The notes below the pieces were generated by a model. It saw only the letters and a list, made by a program, of their open reading frames with translations, did no database searches and had not been told where the DNA came from. From assembly GCA_963678675.1 (NCBI GenBank), contig OY783199.1, positions 9,384,356 to 9,448,355 on the forward strand: a stretch of DNA of 64,000 nt. The letters are read 5' to 3'. The DNA comes from Xiphydria camelus (Eukaryota; Arthropoda; Insecta; Hymenoptera; Xiphydriidae). The position numbers and the translations under genes are program-made. Below, piece by piece: positions 2,827 to 52,182 of the stretch. Each line of letters starts with the position of its first letter. Positions within the stretch are counted from its first letter, which is position 1.

Positions 2827-3179
2827 TTAAAAATATTGTTTCTTTTTCTATGAATTCAGAAAATTATAGCGAGCATTTCCATTACTGCAATTATTTCCAT
2901 GCACTAACATATACCTATTATGGTTTCATGCCGATTATATATGTTCAATTGCTCGTTTCATATGGTGACAGTAAATGTATCAAGCTGTCAAAATAGCTTA
3001 AAAAAAGAAGGAAATGACATGACTCTATATTATCGGCTATCGGATTATTTATACCTTACCGACTGCCGAAGTCAAATTTCAAGGTATCGGCCATAGGTAT
3101 GACTTTGATCGGTTTGCCCGCGGACATACGGCAGTTATTTATGGAAATCCTTTCACGAAAGAATTGTTCTGGGGAAAAT

Positions 3180-3995
3180 ACCGCATGTCCTATGGCCAAC
3201 CGCGCAGGTGAGCTGCGACCTGAATTCTTGACTTCGGCAGTATTTATGGTACAGTTAGAGTGGGCTTCAGACGAGTGCACTGCATAAGAACGAAAAGTGT
3301 CGACTGCTCTTCTAATAGCTGTCAATTCGGGAGATCGAAGCGTTTCGTGTAACCTCAAAATCGTAAAGTTTTGAATTAGTAGTGAATAATTTGTAGAAGT
3401 GATCAGAAATAATCATAAATAATCTTCCGAATTGACAGCCATCGGGAAATCAGACGACGCTTTTCGCTCTTACGCTGCGTTCTTACGAAAACTGTGAAAC
3501 GTCTGATCTCCCGATGGCTATCAATTCGGGAGATCGAAGTATAAGCTCGAAATCGTGAATCTTTGAATAAATGGTAAGTAATGTTCAGAAGTGAGAGTTA
3601 ACAATCATTCGGGTTTTTTCGATGTCCCACCGAATTACACGCCTCATGCCTATTTGTTTCAGAAATTATTTCCGCGCTAGTACCGCGCGTGTCTAGGAAG
3701 TAGTTTTACGAAGTGGCGTGAACGATACCTAAGGTGTCACAATTCGGAAGATTATTTATGATTATTTCTCATCACTCCTACAAATTATTCACTACTAATT
3801 CAAAACTTTACGATTTTGAGGTTACACGAAACGCTTCGATCTCCCGAATTGACAGCTATTAGAAGAGCAGTCGACACTTTTCGTTCTTATGCAGCGCACT
3901 CGTCTGAAGCCCACTCTAACTGTACCATAAATACTGCCGAAGTCAAGAATTCAGGTCGGAGCTCACCTGCGCGGTTGGCCATAAGACATGCGGTA
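3180..3995. repeat. Inverted repeat with ~250 bp arms
   Basis: 3180-3432 is the near-exact reverse complement of 3741-3995. The ~310 bp spacer has its own nested pair: GACAGCCATCGGGAAATCAG at 3436 and the complementary phrase near 3505-3525. Open frames on each arm are mirror images of one another, not a protein. The phrase TCAATTCGGGAGATCGAAG recurs at 3302, 3522, 3836 (as complement) and 56560, marking a wider repeat family. Confidence 0.85.
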
Positions 3996-4189
3996 TATAT
4001 ATTATCGAAATATTAATTATAAAATCATTTCAAAATATCACGAGAATAAATCAAAAGTAATGTGGTTATAATTAATTAACTCGTATCGGTATAAAATGTG
4101 AGACTTTAATTTTGTGGTAATAAAAAGCTATTCTCCTACACGTACATATTCTCCTCATGAATAAATTCCAAAAAGGAGTGAAATCTTGT

Positions 4190-4745
4190 CACAAAAACAG
4201 ATTCTCTGTAAAAAAAAAAAGGCGGCATGTTCATTTAGTGCCAACAAAATTGATACGTAAAATACTCTCCAAAAAAAGATTAGAAATCAATTAAAATCGC
4301 CATGTTCAAGATTTATATATAAAAATTAAAAGGCATCATTTGAAAGGAAAATTATTGTAAATCAAGTTACTAAAAAATTCGACAAAAAATTTATAAAAAA
4401 ATTTCATAAAAAAGAACTTGCCGCGTTTTTTTCCTTCAAAATAAAAAATTCAGACAGAAAATTATATTCGATGTGTATGCACTTATGATTTTAAATAAAT
4501 TCATACACTTATATGATACCACCAGTATGTAGTGGAAAAAATATGAAAATTTAAACGCGGCAAGTTCTTTTTTATGAAAATTTTTTAATACATTTTTTTC
4601 GTCGAATTTTTTAGTAACTTGATTTACAATAATTTTCCTTTCGAATGATGCCTTTTATTTTTTATATATAAATCTTGAACATGGCGATCTTAATTGACTT
4701 CTAATCTTTTTTGGAGATTATTTTAGGTATCAATTTTGTTGGCAT
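4190..4745. repeat. Y palindrome, copy 1
   Basis: The arm running to GAACTTGCCGCG near 4419 is repeated in reverse from CGCGGCAAGTTC near 4556. The arms are ~200-230 bp and contain many AT-rich homopolymers, with a ~115 bp loop. The same palindrome is at 17633-18350, and one arm is at 57490-57740. It is non-coding; probably a non-autonomous TIR or foldback element. Confidence 0.8.
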
Positions 4746-5303
4746 TAAAGAATACCAATACTGTGACCATGTTTGTCATCGTAGCTTTTATTCAAGTACA
4801 TTTTGATAAAATTTACCGATCATAAAATAATTCCTACAGTTCGGTACATTTTACTGTTACCGAATATATTTTATTATTCGTTTTATTAGTATTCACTAGA
4901 GAGTACTACGCGGGCTCTTGCTGCACTCTGAGAAATGTGTTCTTTTATTCTTCTATTTTTATTCTTTTATCTTTTTAAGTGTTAAATATTGCTACTGGAA
5001 GTATAATTCTACTACTCGTAACAGTAATTATCCTTGTGATTAGGTACTATAGAGTATTTTCATATCTGTATTTACAATAAATTTCTCTGTGTTACATTTT
5101 GAAATGTCAATTAATAACTGAAGTAGGTAACTATGCGAGGCATATCACGAATTGCAATAAATAATTTTATTAATTCGTCTATTCGCATAAGTGGTACAAA
5201 GAAGAAAGACTTATTTGGAAGAAGTACCTGGTCTTTAAAGATGACAAAATTCTATTCAAGAATTTTTTCTTGTAAGAACTGAATTATTTGTTTATCTTTT
5301 ATA
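4746..5303. other. No gene recognised
   Basis: AT-rich, with short frames only. Nothing recognised. Confidence 0.5.
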
Positions 5304-6067
5304 CAGGGTGGACCAGGTTAAACGTCATTTTTGTTTATATATAGAACAACAAAAAAGTAGACTTTCATAAGAAAATTTTTTTCAAAAATGTTTCCTAACA
5401 AAGATACAGGGTGTCAAAGTTTCGAAAAAAAAATGGTTTTCTCATCATAACTTCTAAACTACTTGATCGATTTCCATGGAATTTCGCACACATGCTAATG
5501 TAGAACAGCTCTAAGCAATAATGAAATAATTTTAAAAAATTCTCAAGTGGCGTAGATACTGGGGGCCGGTACCCCCCTTTCCCACTTCCAAATCTTCGGC
5601 GCCACTGGATATTTTGCAAAGAAAATTTAATTATTGGATTCCCCGTTTAATTTAAAGAAAAAAAAACACCCTTGCAAATTTTTGATTTGTGACTTCGTTT
5701 TTGAGATTTTTTCTTTAAATTAAACGGGGAATCCAATAATTAAATTTTCTTTGCAAAATATATTCAGTGGCGCCGAAGATTGGGAAGGAGGAAAGGGGGG
5801 TACCGGCCCCCAGTATCTACGCCACTGGAAAATTTGTAAAAATTATTTAATTATTACTTAGAGCTGTACGACATTAGCCTGTGAGGAAATTTCACGGAAA
5901 TCGATCAAGTAGTTTAGAAGTTTTATGAGAAAACCATTTTTTTCGAAACTTTGACACCCTGTATCTTTGTTAGGAAACATTTTTGAAAAAAATTTTCTTA
6001 TGAGTCTACTTTTTTGTTGTTGTTCTATCACATATAAAAAAAATGACGTTTAACCTGGTCCACCCTG
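5304..6067. mobile_element. Foldback element with ~370 bp arms
   Basis: Two arms (about 5304-5675 and 5710-6067) are reverse complements with few differences, around a loop of only ~35-40 bp. Termini read CAGGGTGGACCAGG and its complement, with TA on each side. A second CAGGGTGTCAAAG-type motif lies ~100 bp inside each end. Nothing codes for protein. The whole unit would fold into one long hairpin. TA flanks and the CAGGGTG end suggest a Tc1/mariner-type MITE. Confidence 0.8.
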
Positions 6068-6491
6068 TATAAGGATGGTGAAGAACTGAATTGGAAAGTA
6101 TGTCCTTTTTTACGACACTGATCTTACTTATTACTCTACTTTTTATTAGCAACTCTTTTGGTTTGAAATTAACTACTGCAGAGAAGGCCAGACAATTTCA
6201 GTAATGTTTGATATTCCTCCTGCTAACATATGTACATTTAATATTTTGTTTTTCATTCCCTAAGAATTCAAGATAGCTATGTACAAATAAGATTGTTTTT
6301 TTATTTGGATAATAAAATTTCAGTTCAACTCTCATGGTCGATTCAAACGTTCGGAGTAATCACCTCGGAACGGAGAACTTTTTAGAGCATACCGGATGCT
6401 ACGGTCAAATGAACTTCGCATCGATTATGAAACATCCAATGTAGTAAAGATGACTGTGCCGTGAAAAATGAACGAGAACTCCAAAAGCTCA
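6068..6491. other. No gene recognised
   Basis: AT-rich spacer between two TIR elements. No motif seen. Confidence 0.5.
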
Positions 6492-8889
6492 CACTGAGAA
6501 GAAAGTTTAGTTGAAAAAATTAAATATTTTTAGTTGGATGCAAATTGTTTATTTCAATCAATTATATGTTTAAATCAATTATTTCGGTCTTTACTAGGAA
6601 GAAATAATTGATTGATTCAAAGAATTGATTTCATTGCATGTAAACCGAATTAAATATATAGTTAGTTCAAGTAAAAATTAATTGTTCTAATTATACGGCT
6701 AGTTGAAATAGTAAGAAACAGTTTAATTGAAAACATGAAATGTACCCAATGAAACATTCAATGAACTGAACGTTCTGATATTATTGAAGGAATTAAATAT
6801 TTAATTACTTTAACACGTTCGTCGCCCAACGCGATTCGGTTGAGTTTACGGATTGTTAACGGATTCGCCTGAATTCGGGTACCTGGGGGTTTTTGGGGTC
6901 GCTGATTACTAATCCGAGGCCATAATTGCCAAACTAGTAGATGGCGCCACAATACGACGCATGCGCGGATCAAATGTCGACGTAAAATTGAGTAATTGCC
7001 CTGAATTCGGGTACCCGGGGGTTTTTGGGATCGCTGATTACGAATCCGAGACTAAAATTTCAAAATTCCTAGATGCCGCCACGATACGGCGCATGCGCGG
7101 ATCAAATCTCCGTATCGTGGCGCCATCTACTAATTTGGCAATTCTGGCCTCGGATTCGTAATCAGCGACCCCGAAAACCCCCGAGTACTCGAATTCAGGT
7201 CAATTCATTAACTTTTCGACATTATAAAGGATCCATTTTATCATAAATATAAATTAATAAAACGTATACTATAATGTATATATTTTTAATATTTCTATGT
7301 TGTATCCTAAATTTATATTTCAGTACTTAATCCATTAAATTCCTTTTAAAAATCCAACTGTGAAAATCATGTTTAACTTGAACAAGAAAAGCGTCACCCG
7401 TACGTGGGTGACGCGGCGCCGAACGTGTTAAAATGAAGATGACAACTATATTATGATGTGCTTGTTTTAATGGCCGTATATTTGTACAGCAATTAATTAT
7501 CTAATTACAACAGAGCAGTAAAATAGTTATTCCAACGAAATTTTAATCAAGTAAACGCACTTTTTCAACTACTTTTTTGGTCACTGAATGAAAAAATTAC
7601 TCGAAACAATGCTCAAATTTAATCCATAAAATAATAATGCCATTGAAGCAAATATATTAAGGTAGTCAATTATATCTTAATTTGAATGAACTATGTGATT
7701 TAGTTGAAATCAAGTACCTATCAAATCGAATAACGTGATGTAATTTTTGCAATTATATATATCATCAAATCAAAAAATCGTATTACATTGAATCAATGAA
7801 AATTTATGTAGATTAATTACATCACTTACGTGACGGCATTTTATTACTTCAAAGATTTAACAAATTATTTCAAATAACTACACTTTTTTGAAGTAATTAC
7901 ATTTCTTCTTATTTCAAGTAATGGCAGGTTTTTCAAATAAAATTACAAGAATTACAAGAATTGTTGATTCAGTTACTTCGCCCAAACAATTTGTTGTTTG
8001 AAATAAAGATAGGGAAAATTAAAATATCCTCTCTCTCTCTCTTCTAAGATATATATTTACATTATGAAATATCGTGGTCTAACCAAATAGATGTCAGTTA
8101 TAGACAACAATTGCTACTGTCTTCGAAGCAATTAAATAATTGCTTGCAGCAAGGGAATTATTCGCTGATGGGAGTACACATATTTGACTCCTTCAAAAAT
8201 ATATGCACTGTATTCGACAAAAAGTAGTGCGCGTGGCTTAGTTTGTTTAAAATTGTACATAGTTAGATGAGCTATTGATTCAGTTCAACGAAACGGTGTT
8301 TTGTTTCAAATGAATATACGGTAAATCAAGATATCGATTTAGTTGCTTCGATTAAATATTGAATCGTTGCAAATAAACGTTCAATGCGATTGCATTCAAT
8401 GGAACAAACAAAACTGCAATGCAACTATGTACTTCAGTAAGACTTTCAGATGGGTCGTTTAATGGAATTAAATGCTCTATTGAAGCAAACACTTTCTGCT
8501 ATATTCATGCGTGGATGTATTTGACTTTATCAATCACCATGACAGACAAGGAAGTGAATTATTTGTATCAAAGAAAATGTGACACATTCAAATAAATATT
8601 TGTTTCCTTTAATAATCCATGCAATTGTAACAAATAATCTCTTTATGCGAATAATCCTTGGTGCGGTTAATTAAAAAATGCATTTTTTAATTTAAAAAAT
8701 CCTGTAATCAGTTCAATGCTAATTCTGAATTGTTTCAAATAAAATTTAATAGTAGTAATCACGTTCATCCCCATTGAAACAATTACATCATTTTATTGTG
8801 AACAAACAATTACTTACGACCCCGCAAGTAATTTATATGGTGAATTCAATTAAATATTCATTGCTTCAATAAAAATTTCTTTCTCGGTG
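6492..8889. mobile_element. Non-autonomous TIR element, CACTGAGAA family
   Basis: The left end reads CACTGAGAAGAAAGTTT and the right end is the complement of CACCGAGAAAGAAATTT. The interior is ~1.8 kb of AT-rich sequence dominated by variants of TTCAATTAAAT and CAATTATTT, with no long open frame, plus the TTAA-flanked insert at 6814-7427. The same terminal motif bounds the 266 bp element at 62729-62994. Outer target duplication is not visible, so the ends are moderately certain. Confidence 0.6.
6814..7427. mobile_element. piggyBac-like MITE nested in the 6.5-8.9 kb element
   Basis: The 614 bp element is flanked by TTAA at 6810-6813 and 7428-7431. Its ends are CACGTTCGTCGCC and the complement of CACGTTCGGCGCC. 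Inside are three copies, one inverted, of a ~90 bp unit containing CGCTGATTACGAATCCGAG next to a GGGGGTTTTTGGG motif and ATGGCGCC-type sequence. The same module recurs at 38031-38550 and, diverged, in the 16.3 and 25.2 kb repeats. It has no coding capacity. Confidence 0.8.
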
Positions 8890-13697: not shown

Positions 13698-15637
13698 AAT
13701 TGAGGTTCCCGATGCAAGAACCGGTCGAGCGGTCGAAAACGCTTAAAAGTATTGTCCACTTCGGAAAAGTGGCTGATCGAAAAAAAGTTGAGAAATATAA
13801 AAATATAAAAATACGTACTTATAGAGGGCACAAATACGCATATTTTAGTGTAATTTTACTTTTCTAACTTTTGTGGTTTTTAAGAAAAAAATTAAAAACT
13901 ATTGAATTTCGATCACTCAAAATCGACGATTTTCAGTCTACTTTTAAAACATACATCGCCATATCTCGAAAAATTATGTACGAAACGTCACAATTTTTTT
14001 TTCTCGAACTTATTACACCCAAGCGATGCCAAAAAATTAACAAGCACCGCGAGAAAGATTCATTGTTTATAAATAATCACTGTATAATTATTTAACGAAA
14101 AAGTCGAAGTTTAAAAATTTTCGACCTGTGGGAAACATTTTTCTATTTATTCTTACGACAAAGTGTAAGCGAGAAAGTTGTAGATAGATGTTTTATGAAG
14201 TTTTCTACGAAAAATAGGGAAGATTTAGTGACATTTCACGGGTTTTACGATAGTTCATGTATAAAGCGTGCGATCCGCGTTCGCTCGATTCTCGCGCTCT
14301 GCGCTGCTGTTGCAACAGCGCTGGAATTCAATACCGTCTTGCCGGCAAAGCAAGACGACACATGTATTTTACATCGCCAAAAATAAATCATTTCAAATTT
14401 TGATTTGAATAATTTAGGTCTTGACGTCAATTTGTTTGTCAAATCGTGTCTCGCTTCTACAGCCGTGGGGGCGTGCGAAGACAAAGAAAACGTTGCACAT
14501 TTTTCTAACTGCGCGGCGTGCGTTTATCGGCAAGTCTCGACTTATTGAGACGTGAAAAGCAACTATTTCATAATATTAAAGGGAAAAACTTCTCATTCTC
14601 CTTTCGACGTTCAGTCGGATACGTTCGTTGGTTTTTATCTTCTGTAAAACAACCTAATTTTCCTAATCTGTTTTTACGTTATACAGTATTTTAAGTAATA
14701 ACATTATTCAGTTTTCACGAAATAAATGATAAGATAAAAATTTATCAACAACGCCTGATTTCATCTTGTAATACTACAAAACCCATAAACATATTGCCAA
14801 ATTATTTCGAAAATTCAATAGTACGAATATTATGTTATATCGACATTTTGTACAATATGTATCGTTCATATTATCAAAAAGATTTAATATTATGTCTAAA
14901 TACAATATTTATGCAAGCGCACCTAGATTATTCAAATCAAAATTTGAAATGATTTATTTTTGGCGATGTAAAATACATGTGTCGTCTTGCTTTGCCGGCA
15001 AGACGGTATTGAATTCCAGCGCTGTTGCAGCGCAGAGCGCGAGAATCGAGCGAACGCGGATCGCGCGTTTTATACATGAACTATCGTAAAACCCGTGAAA
15101 TGTCACTAAATCTTCCCTATTTTTCGTAGAAAACTTCATAAAACATCTATCTACAACTTTCTCGCTTACACTTTGTCGTAAGAATAAATAGAAAAATGTT
15201 TCCCACAGGTCGAAAATTTTGAAACTTCGACTTTTTCGTTAAATAATTATACAGTGATTATTTATAAACAATGAATCTTTCTCGCGGTGCTTGTTAATTT
15301 TTTTGGCATCGCTTGGGTGTAATAAGTTTGAGAAAAAAAAATTGTGACGTTTCGTACATAATTTTTCGAGATATGGCGATGTATGTTTTAAAAGTAGACT
15401 GAAAATCGTCGATTTTGAGTGATCGAAATTCAATAGTTTTTAATTTTTTTCTTAAAAACCACAAAAGTTAGAAAAGTAAAATTACACTAAAATATGCGTA
15501 TTTGTGCCCTCTATAAGTACGTATTTTTATATTTTTATATTTCTCAACTTTTTTTCCATCAGCCACTTTTCCGAAGTGGACAATACTTTTAAGCGTTTTC
15601 GACCGCTCGACCGGTTCTTGCATCGGGAGCCTCAATT
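13698..15637. repeat. Large inverted repeat with ~720 bp arms
   Basis: 13698-14418 and 14922-15637 are reverse complements of very high identity, around a ~500 bp unrelated spacer. The clearest difference is an extra GCTGTTG-type unit near 14303-14310 in the left arm. Frames of 60-85 codons appear in mirror pairs on the arms and are not genes. The arms contain a short GC-rich segment (CGAACGCGGATCGC). Neither target duplications nor transposon ends were identified. Confidence 0.9.
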
Positions 15638-24312: not shown

Positions 24313-24396
24313 CAAGCGAACGAGTGCGTGGAGGGGAAACGGGACAGCGAGCCACGTCGTCGTTGACACGCACACAGAAGAATGCGTCGTCTGTTA

Positions 24397-24964
24397 CAGG
24401 GTGTTCGGAAAAAACACCGACACAGAAATAGGGGTGATAGGTTACGTCATTACAAGTATTTTGATATAAGTGACCTATACCCGCAAGCGCCCCCTTCTGG
24501 AGATATCAACTTTTCAAGTTTATAACGACCGAGGTTGATCAAAGTAGAATAATAAGAAACGTATCAAGATGGTAACTAATATTTAATTTTATGAGATACA
24601 AAAACAATGTACTACAGCAAATGCTCAAAATGACGGCCACCCATGTCCATGCAACATCGGAAACGATTCTGGATAGATGTGCCACTGCGCAAATTGCTTG
24701 CGGAAAGGATAACCGCTTGGCTCAAGTCCTTGTACTTTTCGAAGATGATGCGGATACAAGGAGTTTTCATTTGTTTTTCAATTGTACAGGTAGACAAAAA
24801 ACTCAATATTATTCTACTTTGATCAACCTCGGTCGTTATAAACTTGAAAAGTTGATATCTCCAGAAGGGGGCGCTTGCGGGTATAGGTCCCTTATATCAA
24901 AATACTTGTAATGAAGTAACCTATCACCCCTATTTCTGTGTCGGTGTTTTTTCCGAACACCCTG
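24397..24964. mobile_element. TIR element, ~160 bp TIRs, TA target
   Basis: Flanked by TA at 24395-24396 and 24965-24966. The ends read CAGGGTGTTCGGAAAAAACA and its complement, and the inverted arms continue for ~155-160 bp with few mismatches (24397-24552 and 24804-24964). The ~250 bp interior has no recognisable protein. TA duplication and the CAGGGTG end point to a Tc1/mariner-type non-autonomous element. Confidence 0.8.
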
Positions 24965-25239
24965 TATACAAGCTATTTCGTGTATTGGGGCAAAGCCCGG
25001 GCAGTCCCGACAAAAAGTTTACTAGCAATGGTAGATCACAAACACAATACAGAATATATTTTACAGCAATAAATGATATCCATCGTATTAACTATTAGTA
25101 CCGAGTCAATATTGCGTAGTTTTTTATTTTATTTACTACTAATGAAACCAATTATCAATATTTTAAACATGAACCTGTGGTATGTAAGTTTTGGTTGAGG
25201 TTGTCGCGGAGAAAAACCCGTAACGAGGAAATTTCACGG

Positions 25240-44114: not shown

Positions 44115-44475
44115 AATGGCTAAAAAGACTGAAATAAGAGAAGCCTACTTCTGCTCATATTGTCAGAATTAATACACTGGTGAATGGTGTGACCCCCTAT
44201 AGTTCTTTTACATCAAATAAACCAATGTGAAATCACATTCCATATTGAAATAATGAAGTAGTTAGGTTAGTTTCGGCTATTATATAAGAAGCTGTCTTCT
44301 TGAGTTGAGAGGAATAATATTCTTACCTCAAGAGGAGCACTTCTGATACGAAGACTACATATTTGTCTAATTACGTTAAGCTGACAATTTGCTTACAGCA
44401 AGTGGCTTAGGTGTGGAGAGGATTTTAGTCTTCCCACAAGCAGAATTCTATTAATAGGCCAGTGCAATTAAGATC
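44115..44475. other. No gene recognised
   Basis: Short spacer between two TIR elements; no motif. Confidence 0.45.
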
Positions 44476-45407
44476 GCTCGTGGAACAAAATGCCCTAAAG
44501 CTGATTTATGCGGGATTATTTAGCTTTTGTGGCCCTGATTAAAATACTAAAAGTCCCCATCCCTCCGAGGGTGCAAACAACCCAAAAACTACCCCTAAAG
44601 GTAAATTTTTTTAGTTTTTCTCAAATATCTTAAAAACGGCTCTTTTTTTTTGAAAAAATGAAAGGGACCAAAATGAAAGCCAATAAAACTACTTATAAAA
44701 TGGTATATAGCAGTGCATAATTTTTTGGAAACCAGTGGAGGGCTGGAAGCGTTTAAAATTGCGAAACGTACATCCACCCTCAATATTACGTTTTACGCAG
44801 TAAAAATACTCCTAGTTAGTTTATTTAAGACAATGGAAGTTAAAACATTGCGAAAAAAGTAAAAAATATATATGTATAATAAATATAAATATAGGTACCT
44901 ATATAAAAAATAAAATATAAATATAAAAGTAAACATATATAGGTATATGTATGTATGAATGTATGTCAAAATATGTTACGTTAGTGGCGTGCAGCAAGTG
45001 TCCGAAGACGATACAGATTTTTCAATACTCAAAAAAGATGTAATTGGTTTGAATTGTTCTGTTTAGAACAATTGATGTTTAAATTATTTATCACTTGGAG
45101 AAAATCCAATCAAAATTAGGGCAGTGGCGTGTAGTGAAGTTTTAAAGTCGATTAAAAAATGGCTATTAATATGGCTAAAGAATCGTATCTATTATACTAA
45201 AAGTATATATCAAATATTTATTTTCCCATGCTCAAGAAACAATATACATTCAGTACTCGTACTTACATTAGAGTATATGTACAATAAAAAATCTAGATCA
45301 AATCTTCGTCGACTTCGTTTTCAGCGGGTTGAAATATATGGCTACAAGACTGTCCTTGACATTGCCCACACATATTTGAACAGTTTAGACCAGATTTCTT
45401 ACACTTA

Positions 45408-46310
45408 GGGCCAATTCCACCAACTCTGATTAAATGCTAGATTACCTAATCACGATTATATTTAATCGGCTTTCTAATCATGATTAACTGCACAATTCGT
45501 TCCGCCATGAATTTTGAACCCCCGATTATCTAATCATATACTCTCTTTGCAATAAGTTTTGGTTTTGTTGCAACGGTGATTCTGATTGGTTCACCAACGG
45601 AACTTGGAATGGAGTAGGAGGAAAACCTGACGTGATCAACTGGCGCGCTGCAAGCCGAGCTCAGTGAGCTGCCGAAATCTCCAACAGAATTTCAAAAGGA
45701 ATCAGTTGCATAATACCGGAGAGCAAGCAGTAGTTGTACTCTGGGTACAACAGCGTGGTTTCTGAAATGTGCACTATCTTTATTGAGTAAAGATACAGAA
45801 AATTCTACGCGATTTTTAACGTAATATGATAATGTTGCGATATTTTAAAATAGATTATATATTATTTAAGAAGCAATTTATCTTTCTGTAGCGTGTTGCA
45901 AATGATGTACAATTTCCAGAAGCAATGCTTCAACAATGTCTTTCGATAACCGAAAACGCGTAATGAAATCCAAATCATTCAAAGTTTGGAAATAATTAAT
46001 TCGTTCCTTAATTAAATGTGGCCTTCTATCAATTTCGACACCATTTTCATCATCAGATGATGATAAAATATCGTAGTAAAATAAATTCATGTCCGGTATA
46101 GTATTGCTCAGCAGTGGAACTTCGATTTTAAGGTTATGTTGATCCACATTAATCACTGGTTAAGTTCCTAACCGGCCAACAATGGCCGATTAAGTTCAAT
46201 GGTGATTATCTCACTTTAATCATGGATTAAAAATTGGTGGAACGCAAGAGCTTGATTAAATTAAGCTAATCGGAAATTAACAATTTAATCAGAGTTGGTG
46301 GTTTCGGCCC
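45408..46310. mobile_element. Harbinger element inserted in the Cys-rich tail
   Basis: The 903 bp element starts GGGCCAATTCCACCAACTC and ends with the complement of GGGCCGAAACCACCAACTC; the inverted match continues TGATTAAAT. TTA flanks both sides (45405-45407, 46311-46313). Removing the element with one TTA joins the host reading frame perfectly (KLC / KCKKSG), which proves both the boundaries and the 3 bp duplication. It holds a transposase N-terminal fragment on the minus strand. Confidence 0.9.
45878..46156 (-). pseudogene. HARBI1-like transposase, N-terminal fragment
   Basis: A 92-codon frame with PDMNLFYYDILSSSDDE, then RRPHLIKERINYFQTLND, then DFITRFRLSKDIVEALLLEI, ending HLQHATER and a stop. 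'FRTRFRLSK..V..LL..I' after a 'R..Y...L.D..F' lead is the N-terminal signature of PIF/Harbinger transposases (HARBI1 type), placed before the DDE catalytic domain. The helix-turn-helix and all catalytic residues are absent. Its position inside GGGC-ended, TTA-flanked termini independently supports Harbinger. It is a truncated, presumably non-functional copy; no second Myb/MADF-type gene is present within the element. Confidence 0.85.
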
Positions 46311-47715
46311 TTACACAGCTTTCCACAATCAGTCTTACAGTTACAGAATATCAATTTTAGGATGAATTCTGGTGCAATTGGTTTGTCGGTCGTTATTTGT
46401 GAAAGAAGTTCTCCCTGCTTTCTCCATCCCCAAGAGGTAGCTTCTAACTCATTTTCCAGCCATTCCTGAATTTGGTAATATACCCGCAAACTGTGCTGAG
46501 TGGCTGCATCTGATGTTGGTGGTAAAGAAGTTAATGAGAAGTTTGCACTTAAACTCTGGCTTGATGCATTGTTGTGAAATTTGAAAAAACGTAGCTGATT
46601 TAGCGTTTTTACTGACTTTCCGACATCATACAGAGCCAATAGAAACTCTTCTCCAATAGCGATTATATCCTTCTTGTATGCAGTGGGATTTTAAAAAATG
46701 GCTACTTTGGCTTGTAGGTCCTGATGTTTCTCTGAAAGCCTATATGTAGACAACTTTCCTTTTTTATAAATTGCCGAGGTAGTATCACATCCAAAAACGG
46801 TATGGGAAAATAAAATCGAAGCACGCATAGTACCTATCTTATTTTGAAGCGCATTTATGTTCGTTGTTTTATTAGGTTTTGTAGTGCTGCCGGGTCTTAA
46901 CATATAAATATTGTCCGTTTTTGATTTGAATAACAGTAATATACCATTAAATCAGTGTCTTTTCACCAACCAATGTTACCGATTTGTCTAACTTTCTTGC
47001 TTCAAGAATTTTCTCCGCTATGAGTGTATCTAGATACATCCCCATGTGCTTGGAAAACTTTAATATCAGCTGTTTCGAGATATTGGCTTAGTTGTGAAAT
47101 AAACAACTTTTTATTGTTTTCATTTTTAAAAAATCGGGGCCTATTAATGATTGCCATGCTGTGGTCTATTAACCGAAAGACTAATTGTGGAAAGGCCAAA
47201 TGTTATCCGTCTTCACTTGCATTTAGCCGCCTAGCATACGCCTATTACTTAATGAAGGGCCGATTGTAAAATTTCTTATATTTCAGAAACACTTCGAAAT
47301 AAAAAAATACCTAACTTTATTGACTTAACACTATTTGTTCTTTATTTTTGAGTACTTTTACATGGGAAAATAATTCGATAGCATTTTCGCTGAGAAAAGT
47401 GTTTTTTTTGAAGGCCGAAAAATATTTAATGACTTTTGACACTCGCTGTACGCCACTGGTTTATTCAAAAATTATGTGTATATATATACCAAATTGTAGA
47501 TAATTTTATTGGCTTTCATTTTGGTCTCTTGCATTTCTTCAAAAAAAGGAGTAGTTTTTGAGATATTTGATAAGAACTAAAAAAATGTACATTTAGGGGT
47601 AGTTTTGGGGTTGTTTGCACCCTCGGAGGGATGGGGACTTTTAGTATGTTAATCAGGACCAAAACAGCTAAATAATCCCGCATAAATCAGCTTTAGGGCA
47701 TTTTGTTCCACGAGC

Positions 47716-48135
47716 ACCATGTTATCAAAAATAACTTCCCTGGCCTATAAGGTCGTGAATTGAGAAGAATTTCTACTAGTCCCAAATGGATTCCGCTTAC
47801 GGCATATGTCTTTTTTTGAGCGTGTATTATACTTGTTCAATATACATGCGATATACGTTATCAGTTTAAGATTATCAAGCTGATCATAAGCCGGTATTTC
47901 TAATACAAATTGTATACGTATTTTGTACGTACACTTGTGCCGAAGCGTATAAAATTTGTACTTATATTAACTATATGTTTATTTCATGACATATTATAAC
48001 CCGTTTATCTTACGCACATTTTATACGTGTAGTAATGAAAAACGTTAAGTCCACGCATAAAGATGGTTCCTTACTAATTAAAATGATGTAATTAATCCAT
48101 TTTTTAATCGTATTCTGTATACGTTTTTTAAATGT
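47716..48135. other. No gene recognised
   Basis: AT-rich; nothing recognised. Confidence 0.45.
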
Positions 48136-48636
48136 TTGGTAAAACATCCATTTACACATAATTTAAACGTTGATAAATCAGTTAATGGGTGGACATCCGC
48201 CCAAAAATATACTACTTGTATCAGCAGTGTCTTGTATAAGTTAAAAAATTATGTTCCGTATAAAACATTAAGAACCATTTACTGTGCACTAGTAGACTCG
48301 CAGATTAGGTACCTATGGGATATTAGCTTGGGGGACGGCAGAGGAGGTTTACAAATGCTGCAAAATGTACACAAATACGCACTTAGACAATTTGAAAAGA
48401 AGGAACATCTAAACTACGTGCAGATGGCAGATAACTTAAATGTGGCGACGGTCAGAGGAATGTATTTTTATTTAGTATACTGGGAGCAATTTTTTGTAAA
48501 ATATATAGAATACGAGAAAGCACAAGTGCTATATAATATGAGGCAAAGAACAAGAATTCCAGCCCCTACATGTGATAATAAATTTGGATACAGAACAAAG
48601 GAATACATAGAAATTAGACTAAGCAAATCCCAATAA
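48136..48636 (+). pseudogene. Reverse transcriptase C-terminal fragment, non-LTR element
   Basis: A 166-codon frame with KYTTCISSVLYKLKNYVP, then YKTLRTIYCALVDSQIRY, then QMLQNVHKYALRQF, DNLNVATVRGMYFYLVY and, near the end, FGYRTKEYIEIRLSKS. The pattern 'VP..TLRTIY.ALVDSQI.Y' followed by 'LQ...KYALR' is the thumb and C-terminal region after the palm of Jockey/CR1-like non-LTR reverse transcriptases. The catalytic YADD box and the upstream palm are not present, and 5' truncation is the usual outcome of this class of insertion. The sequence after the stop (48640 onward) could be its 3' untranslated part. It lies between two DNA transposons and belongs to a different insertion from the one at 31.3-33.2 kb as far as can be judged. 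Confidence 0.65.
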
Positions 48637-49230
48637 GCGACCTAAGAAATAGCCGGAAGAGTGTGAGTTAAAGAAAAATCTTAAACTAGAACTAGACAGT
48701 CGTCAAATTTTCCAAAGCTATTCCGTCACTACATTATTCACATGGGAATGTTAATGTCGATGCAGGGTCACAAAAAAGCAAAGCTAATAATACGTTGTGA
48801 AGAATGTTGATACGTTACTTTATCATCGATCCATGGGATCTGACATGGGTGAGGAGCTTAGTTCGAAAAATCCAATATGGCCGAAATGAGTATACTACCG
48901 ACACAGAATGTATGGGAGTGAAGTCATTATTTATTGTTTTGGCACGCGCAGGGCTCCGCGAATCCTTCCCAACTTTCACTAGACTCGCGGGAGGACATGA
49001 GCACCCTTTGCCCTCCGTTATCGTCTAGGGTTGACCTCCCATAAATATAAATTAAGTCTTCGAGACGCGCATATGTCTGTCCCTGGATGGGCGCATCATG
49101 GAACGTCGACGTATCTGCGCGCAATCCCGGAGTCTTTTTCACGCTTTTACTCTTCCACTTTCTCGAAACTTTCTTCTCATGTCGTGAAATGGAAAAAACC
49201 CGCCCTTTTTAGAGCGAAGGCTCGTGTATA
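48637..49230. other. No gene recognised
   Basis: The part at 48900-49200 is more GC-rich. Short overlapping frames without motifs. Confidence 0.45.
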
Positions 49231-51789
49231 CCCCCCTCCCCGCCCCCCCCCCCCCGTGGGAATTTCTGACTCACATATTTTTTAGTTGGTATTGCCATGT
49301 AGTTTAAGGTTTTAGTTGTTTGCCTCTTGTCAATTACAGCATATCCCGGAAAAACGTGGAAAACCACAGTGTTCCGTCGCACTGAGCGACGGAATTCGGA
49401 AGGTCGATTCATACCCCTTAATAGCGTCTGTAGATCACAAGTTCCAAGTTCTAGAAATTCTATTGACATCACAATAGAACAGACAATCAATCGATATGCC
49501 AAATGCACCGGCGGCATAGTGGGTTACAGCAGAAATTTCTGGGCATATGCACGATGGTGTATTACAAGGCATGAACGTGCTAAATATGTAGAATTGGCAT
49601 TTGAAAAAAAGCAAGTATGTTACATACATCAGATTCCTTTCACCGAGACATGCAAATAAGAGAAATGAAACGAAGTGGGCAAAGTGTCTTGAAAGTAATT
49701 GAAGCTATTGAGTAATATATCAATCCATTTGAAGTTGACGACAAGGATTCTCTGTTCTGCTTATCATCTGGAAGGCCTGCACCTGAATCGGTGGAAGAAG
49801 ATTTACTCAATGTAGATATTCTGGGGAAGCTGACTACAACACTTTCCTACAAGACAGATTTATTTTAAAGAATAAAAAATTTCATGAACCACTGAAGAGA
49901 AAAGCTTAAAACTTTAAAGAGTATTCAAGAGAATATAATTGTTACGTCCTCTCAAAACAGATTAGTGTAGATAAGAGTAGAAAGAAATATTTTTGGTCGA
50001 GCTTTGCTCCTGTCCCAGGGACGTCAAATTAGCCTAGAGATGCTGTTATCCTATCCATTAGGACCAGTACCATGGGCATTAGCAACTGCTGATGGGTGTC
50101 CTACAAAAACAGACAAGGCCAAACTACTCCATGCTTTGGAGATCAAGGGTGCGGTAAATGAACCTGCTAAGGTTGAAGAATGCATTTATATGATTGATGG
50201 CATGGCTTACTTTCAAGCTCTCAGTAATATTCCAGAAACCTTTGGTTAGCTCGCCGAGATAGTCTTAAGCCGCTTTCCAAAATGCAAGAGGATAGATTTC
50301 GTGACGGATACTTACGCAGATGTATCTATTAAAAACATTGAGGGACTAAGAAGGGGCCGTGGAGATACCTAAGAAAAAAATTCCTCGGGATTGGAAAAAA
50401 TTTCTCAGTAATGGCAAAAACAAGGAACATCTTGTCAACCTTCTACATAATGAATGGAAACAAGATATATATGCCCACTATTTTATTGGTAGAAAACTTG
50501 ACTCATCACATAATGATCAGTGCATGTTGTTTACTAGCGAAGACGGTTAAACTGTGAATTATACGATACAAGAAGAGCTATGCTCTTCACAAGAGGAGGC
50601 GGATACTAAAATTACATTACATTGCTTTCATGCTTCTCAATCCTGTCAAGACAATTTGCATATCAGAATTAGATCACCAGACACAGATGTTTTTATGTTG
50701 TTATTAAGTTACGCCAACGAAATTGAAAACGTGTTACTGTTTGATACAGGAACTAGAAACAAACGAAGGGTCATTAATGTCACCATCATTTCTCGGGATT
50801 TAGGTGTTGAATATGCACGCATTATCCGGATGCGACACTACCAGTTCATTTGTTCGTTATGAAAAGTTGTCAGTAAAATCTAAATTGGAAGTTTTCGAAA
50901 TTCGTGCCTATCCTTAGATCATTAGGATCATCACTTACAATTACAGACATGTTACAGACAGGCCTAGAGGAATTCGTCTGTTGCTTGTACAGTGATAAGG
51001 GATACACATATATAAATAAGCTACGGTACGATTTGTTCACACAAAAATACTCTCCCACAATGACATTTGCATTGCCAAATACACAAGGTGTCGAATTGAG
51101 TCTACTACCTCCTTGTAAAGCTTCACTTGAAAAGCACATCAGTCGTGCAAACTACCAGTGCTATATATGGAACAATGCACATGTTGCTAAATTCATACTA
51201 CTAACTCCAGTGGGACATGGCTGGAAGTTGGAGAATGGACAACTGAAGTTTGATTGGATTAAAGGGGATCCGTTGCCGCACGAATTAACCGACGTTACGG
51301 AAAGTTAACATCCAGATGAGTTTGAAGATGGAACTGATCCAGAAGTAGTTAACTTAGCCGATATAGTACATGAGGATGAAGAAGACTGCTGATTACAGAT
51401 GCTGTTATAAAATGAAATACTCTTCTTTGATTTTGAGGTTGAAAGTGAATTTTCATTATTATAACTAGGATGTTTTCGTTTATATTCACACAATGAGAAT
51501 GTTGTGTTAAGGTTCATATTTACAATAAAAAATGGAAGAATATGTTACTAAAAACTCAGGGAAGAATTCCTGCACAAAATATTATTTATAAACATATCTT
51601 CTTCAACGAAAAATTTTAATGAAATGAGAATGAATTGAAAAAGAGTCATTTTCTCCGTGTTTTCGTGGTTTTTCATGTTTTTTCGGGATATACTGTAATT
51701 GACAAGAGGCAATCAACTAAAACCTTAAACTAGATGGCAATACCAACAAAAAAATATGTGAGTCAGAAATTTCCACGAGGGGGAGGGTT
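49231..51789 (+). mobile_element. DNA transposon B with GCDTTS/PIN-like gene remnant
   Basis: Terminal inverted repeats of ~125-135 bp: 49231-49367 mirrors 51665-51789, sharing AATTTCTGACTCACATATTT, TTAGTTG.TTGCCTCTTGTC and AATTACAG.ATATCCCG. The outer end is C-rich (CCCTCCCCCTCGTGG on the right, a longer C run on the left). The TIR sequence is unrelated to that of element A. The enclosed gene remnant fills the whole interior. Length 2.56 kb; target duplication unresolved because of the C run. Confidence 0.8.
49456..51392 (+). pseudogene. GCDTTS-family protein (PIN/XPG-like), copy B
   Basis: Collinear blocks, in changing frames: NSIDITIEQTINRYAKCTGG and FWAYARWCITRHERAKYVE (49456-49590); LKVIEAIE and SLFCLSSGRPAPESVEEDLL; GRALLLSQGRQISLEMLLSY, VPWALATADGCPTKTDKA and ECIYMIDGMAYFQALSN (50004-50249); IDFVTDTYADVSIKNIEG; LCSSQEEADTKITLHCF and RSPDTDVFMLLLSY (50569-50720); HALSGCDTTSSFVRYEKLS (about 50814-50870); LSLLPPCKASLEKHISRANY and LLTPVGHGWKLENGQLKFDW (to 51308), then an acidic end with a stop at 51390. 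More complete than copy A but broken by at least six stops or frameshifts. Acidic motifs EEAD, DTD and GCD suggest a PIN/XPG-like nuclease. Unlike A it ends in an acidic rather than a Cys-rich tail. Confidence 0.8.
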
Positions 51790-52182
51790 TCATATTGGTA
51801 GCTCATGGTCTACTTGTGCCGAAGCATACCCCTTCCTTGCGAGCCGTTTCCCGGCAGTCGTGAAAAATTCGTTATCGTGTTCGTATCTCCTCCTGCACCT
51901 CACTTACGCAAGCATCGCACTCATTCTAAGTGTTCCCGGACATTCGTTGTTAACCCGAAAATAAAATCTACGTATTTACCAAACTACAACCCTCTCTCTC
52001 CAGTTTCTTCGCTTCTGTCTACTCCTTCGTCGCAACAGCATTCTTTCCTGGATTCCGATTCTATTCCCTTTCTCTCCTCAAACTATTTTATGTTTGGTCT
52101 TCCGAACATTTACGAATGGCTTTAACTATGAACGCGATTTGCTCTTAGGCAGGTATCTTACACCTTCCATTTTTCTATTAAT
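51790..52182. other. No gene recognised
   Basis: Moderate GC, short overlapping frames on +; no motif. Confidence 0.4.

Follow-up and report, generated by a model that had tools for sequence, protein, structure and literature searches.

Two internally deleted transposons with a broken transposase–nuclease gene in Xiphydria camelus, probably of the AcademX type

Results

The 64,000-nucleotide stretch of contig OY783199.1 from Xiphydria camelus analyzed here (the window) contains two DNA elements, A and B, each with long terminal inverted repeats (TIRs) around a gene remnant (Table 1). A first-pass annotation made from the sequence alone had placed their limits at 44476–47715 and 49231–51789, with long TIRs in both, and the repeats are indeed well above background. 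In A, the arms at 44476–44657 and 47534–47715 are 91% identical over 182 nt, with a continuation (44645–44725 and 47467–47547) that is 81% identical over 81 nt; in B, the arms at 49245–49367 and 51665–51787 are 92% identical over 123 nt. Gapped inverted-repeat scores are 321 bits for A and 178 bits for B, whereas the best of 50 first-order Markov sequences of this region reaches 33.7 bits.

The true ends of both elements lie outside the limits first given (Table 1). Comparing the flanks of copies had been proposed as a check, and for the B family this revealed both ends and duplications. There are 30 B-type loci, of which nine have no TIR pair in the stretch examined and one (L030) has an odd left end; the remaining 20 copies were used. 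Similarity among them continues outward through the C-rich and G-rich tracts as far as 5'-TAGAGCGAAGG at one end and 5'-TAGACCATGAG at the opposite end, beyond which the flanks are unrelated. A perfect 3-bp duplication is present in 19 of the 20 copies and a 4-bp duplication in none, and when left and right flanks are deliberately mismatched, 3 bp agree in only 18 of 380 pairings. T is the first base in 12 and A the last base in 11 of the 19 duplications. The sole exception is the window's own copy, flanked by TTT and CTT. The span of B is drawn where it is because the similarity between copies ends there and the 3-bp duplications sit there; that of A follows from the same reading of the ends in one copy, where each end reads 5'-TAGGCCAG and each flank is TAA.

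Both elements therefore begin with 5'-TAG and are associated with a 3-bp duplication, perfect in A and with one mismatch in the window's B, and by eye CTCGTG lies close to the left end of each. The interiors of their TIRs show no match to each other by sequence comparison, in agreement with the earlier description of the TIRs as unlike; what the two share is the end features just named. The left ends are repeated in the genome (357 Mb in 38 contigs), with that of A at 40 or more places at 95–100% identity (40 scored of 166 candidates) and that of B at 40 or more places at 97–100% (40 scored of 405 candidates), own copies included. We also considered whether the interior of B flips between its two unlike ends and rejected this, as the TAGAGC end is upstream of the gene in all 20 copies.

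The genes of A and B each correspond to just the C-terminal portion of a longer protein, a correction to the single gene remnant per element annotated at first; A in addition holds a nested Harbinger-like element. The remnant of A, of about 200 residues, is matched by 263 of 323 relatives at E≤1e-3 (tblastn; best 5.5e-19, 31% identity). That of B is collinear with residues 880–1551 of the 1,555-residue relative P0142, with 42–75% identity by piece (tblastn), and corresponds to the last 43% of a fused protein: the end of a DDE domain, a linker, and an XPG-like nuclease. Nothing is left of the N-terminal part, and little of the DDE domain. The motifs reported as common to A and B are secure as regards GCDTTS, which in B is in frame at 50813–50866, and EEAD and DTD are in B's open reading frame (ORF) 50551–50862; the DTD of A is read only by eye, in a frame different from that of its GCDTTS. 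Aligned with the relative P0088, B-type loci have a frame change near residues 790–830 in 23 of 30 cases and near residues 974–986 in 17 of 30, plus stops (hand count). Since these defects are common to many loci, the breakage probably predates the spread of the family, and one of the frame changes may mark a short intron.

Intact relatives are present in the same genome. A 103-residue piece of B used as query found at least 137 matches (150 of 247 candidates scored), with open frames exceeding 1000 codons among them. Twenty stretches of 10 kb were taken around matches, and five of these (L031, L033, L034, L036, and L037) contain ORFs of 1454–1514 codons whose proteins are 37–53% identical. 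An inverted-repeat pair surrounds the ORF in 11 of the 20, including L034, L036, and L037, and measures 167–728 bp within the stretch, some being cut by its edge; for L031 and L033 the second arm was not found within the 10 kb. DNA identity within a family is 97–99.9%, and for six families copies cease to resemble one another at 5'-TAG or no more than 5 bp outside it (Table 1); for a seventh (L047/L050) the comparison defined no end. Two copies with both ends have 3-bp duplications, TAG/TAG in L042 and TGA/TGA in L032. The L042 element (positions 2860–6791, about 3.9 kb) has 728-bp TIRs at 99.9% identity and is probably a recent insertion.

Three further features of these families were observed. 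A long C tract is located near the 5'-TAG end in two otherwise different families, B and L036/L041. Copies of a single repeat (93% over 690 bp) adjoin two different families, in L037 (from 6572) and L046 (from 6623), which stop at an identical position where a 291-bp imperfect palindrome has its edge; this repeat is possibly a preferred target. Lastly, in one B-like copy (C10:28313097–28318535) some 5 kb separate the TIR from the nuclease match, about 3.9 kb more than the approximately 1.1 kb of other copies, making it a candidate for the full-length parent of B.

Relatives of the fused protein occur, by source names, in insects, cnidarians, molluscs, a hemichordate, a tunicate, echinoderms, a sea spider, and a sponge. 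The first two protein searches, restricted to long proteins, listed 211, of which 96 form alignment A1. Profiles cut from A1, and so not independent of the 211, detect both domains in 201 and the DDE domain alone in 10. GCDTTS itself is present in 39 of the 211, with GCDY, GCDF and the like in the others. A third search, counted separately, let in shorter proteins, and 46 of its 112 new proteins have no detectable DDE domain. Those lacking it begin at scattered points (26 inspected, 23 from the list of such proteins), as would predictions cut at exons.

The C-terminal domain matches the fold of XPG/Rad2 nucleases over the catalytic domain, in agreement with the first-pass suggestion of an XPG/FEN-like nuclease. 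XPG/Rad2 enzymes have seven catalytic acids (D, D, ExE, DxD, D in FEN1 numbering), and the corresponding D751, D790, E893, D895, D917, D919, and D977 are kept in 91–96 of the 96 A1 rows. At the sequence level, a search of solved structures gave no PDB chain of the XPG/Rad2 family at E≤10, and no XPG Pfam match was seen in 11 proteins at E≤1. The DDE region has the RNase H order of strands and helices in both models, with conserved D92, D268, and E514 (the first acid being D92 or D89) and a large insert of helices ahead of the last acid. No confident match came from Foldseek alone, none of the five genomic ORFs has a Pfam match above cut-off that names either domain, and an NCBIfam scan of six relatives gave nothing relevant. 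PF20231 (DUF6589) matches the DDE region (residues 640–945) in five of six relatives scanned, passing the cut-off in two of the six, and is precomputed for 19 of 120 listed hits. A Cys/His motif, seen by eye, and weak winged-helix matches suggest an N-terminal DNA-binding part. A Tesmin/TSO1-like CXC domain (PF03638) is located at the C-terminal end of P0214, P0226, and P0242, and is precomputed for several other relatives.

The window contains other features as well. Within the element nested in A, ORF 45878–46159 (reverse strand) resembles by eye the start of a Harbinger transposase and has no Pfam match. Between A and B, a 184-codon open frame (48082–48636) resembles by eye the last part of a reverse transcriptase, the only Pfam match being below cut-off at E 0.15. 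A long fold-back element at 13698–15637 has three inverted-repeat pairs nested in one another (339, 277, and 109 nt, 99% identity), and a short element at 24395–24966 has 160-nt inverted repeats at 99% with outer end CAGGGTGTTCGG adjoining TA. Among 21 inverted-repeat pairs scanned (25 listed of 46 found), none qualified as a further 5'-TAG element.

Table 1. Features of elements A and B in the window, and ends of related families elsewhere in the genome
Feature	Position or loci	Strand	Remarks
Element A	44455–47747	− (gene)	5'-TAGGCCAG...CTGGCCTA-3'; probable non-autonomous AcademX-type; ends and duplication read in a single copy
Left target-site duplication of A	44452–44454		TAA
Right target-site duplication of A	47748–47750		TAA
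Left TIR of A, inner part	44476–44738		87.5% over 264 columns with 47453–47715
Right TIR of A, inner part	47453–47715		partner of 44476–44738
Gene remnant of A	46292–46942	−	part of XPG-like domain from around GCD onward; GCDTTS in ORF 46691–46951
Harbinger-like element nested in A	45408–46310		ends GGGCC; TTA flank on each side
Element B	49210–51812	+ (gene)	5'-TAGAGCGAAGG...CATGGTCTA-3'; probable non-autonomous AcademX-type; ends from 20 copies
Left flank of B	49207–49209		TTT, where the duplication is expected; one mismatch to right flank
Right flank of B	51813–51815		CTT
C-rich tract in left end of B	49231–49254		G-rich tract at opposite end; length varies among copies
Left inner TIR of B	49255–49367		starts CGTGGGAATTTCTGAC
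Right inner TIR of B	51665–51777
Gene remnant of B	49423–51386	+	broken by stops and frame changes; tblastn with P0142, E 4e-154
Family end	L031/L045/L032		TAGTCCGGGAGGTAGCG
Family end	L033/L042		TAGACTAAGAGC
Family end	L034/L048/L035		TAGTCCGGGAGGCAG
Family end	L036/L039/L041		TAGTCCACAGTAC
Family end	L037/L043/L049/L040		TAGTCCAAGAGC
Family end	L044/L046		TAGTCCGGGAGGTAGGGG; without long ORF

Discussion

The ends, 3-bp duplications, domain order, conserved acids, and broken frames of the window copies are direct observations, and we conclude, with a probability of about 0.9, that A and B belong to two AcademX-type DNA transposon families, as dead, non-autonomous copies with internal deletions. 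An intact element would measure about 6.5–7 kb and have 5'-TAG termini and long TIRs; its single gene would encode a protein of about 1450–1550 residues, ordered as an N-terminal DNA-binding part, an RNase H-like DDE transposase, and a C-terminal XPG/FEN-type nuclease with EEAD, DTD, and GCD(TTS/Y). AcademX elements, reportedly described by Kojima in 2020, are said to encode a single protein with an XPG nuclease. Their termini are 5'-YR, which the 5'-TA(G) ends of A, B, and the six families fit. Two further features of the lineage are also present here, with transposase and nuclease encoded together and duplications of 3 bp in 19 of the 20 B-family copies, in A, and in L042 and L032.

The assignment was made by the published description of the lineage, which leaves some room, albeit little, for a separate undescribed superfamily with its own fusion of DDE transposase and XPG-like nuclease. 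The failure of Pfam to name either domain in the five ORFs, and the lack of a functional name for the DUF6589 matches, are compatible with this, but both the enzyme pair and the duplication length fit AcademX as described in PMC10045372. Academ had been named as one candidate home in the first-pass annotation. It is very unlikely that the nuclease half is self-sufficient and B a compact, once-working form; B-family copies do retain this half and lose the remainder, and the DDE domain is undetectable in some further relatives, but the recurrent frame changes and stops point to a gene broken before the spread, and the scattered starts of the DDE-less relatives inspected resemble those of exon-cut predictions. 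Least credible is the capture of pieces of a host XPG-like gene by unrelated TIR elements, for although A and B differ in the interiors of their TIRs and both genes are partial, the same nuclease half ends the long ORFs of TIR elements in this genome and is C-terminal in 201 of the 211 listed relatives, 5'-TAG ends are shared, and duplications are 3 bp; the proposal that this is a transposon protein and not a host family is supported.

In AcademX-type transposition as we envisage it, the DDE domain would cut and join the transferred 3' ends, in a cut-and-paste reaction with a 3-base stagger. XPG relatives cut 5' flaps and junctions, and the XPG domain could cut the other (5') strand, or trim 5' flaps, either at the ends or in the 3-base gaps. 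Elements such as A and B retain ends and would have been moved by protein from intact relatives. We tentatively raise the idea, somewhat short of favoring it, that the XPG half is a second catalytic center of the transposase rather than an accessory, with DDE acting on the 3' strand and the FEN-type nuclease on the 5' strand or flap. If so, a single chain would combine two different nuclease folds in a eukaryotic cut-and-paste pathway, and the fusion across long relatives together with the conserved acids makes the idea directly testable. Precisely mapped ends, the duplication length, and long copies of near identity within a single genome provide material for asking what an XPG nuclease does in transposition.

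These observations also put a name and a domain interpretation to a group of animal proteins annotated as 'uncharacterised' and hardly resolved by Pfam. These proteins appear to be products of transposons of a type already described, and a check is needed before any of them is counted as a host gene family. Academ elements are reported in all arthropods examined, according to PMC6327564, and at higher copy number in the transposable element islands of an ant according to PMC4284661.

Among known systems, PF20231 matches the DDE region of the relatives, although it is a family of unknown function. The transposases of the P element, Transib, and hAT (Hermes) share the RNase H-like core predicted here and the large insert before the last acid, but give duplications of 8, 5, and 8 bp respectively, and are not known to have such a nuclease domain. 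XPG, Rad2, FEN1, and EXO1 nucleases share the fold and the seven acids, but have no sequence-level match, and the nuclease here is joined to a transposase. AcademH belongs to the same superfamily as AcademX but is described in PMC10045372 as having 9 or 10 bp duplications and a helicase instead of a nuclease; no helicase family was found in 17 protein scans, and the B-family duplication is 3 bp, so AcademH does not fit. AcademX is described there with a transposase and nuclease and duplications of 3 or 4 bp, the difference in length between the two groups being tied to the encoded nuclease or helicase, and it is this combination that we see, here with 5'-TAG ends, TIR stretches of the lengths given above, and A and B as deleted copies.
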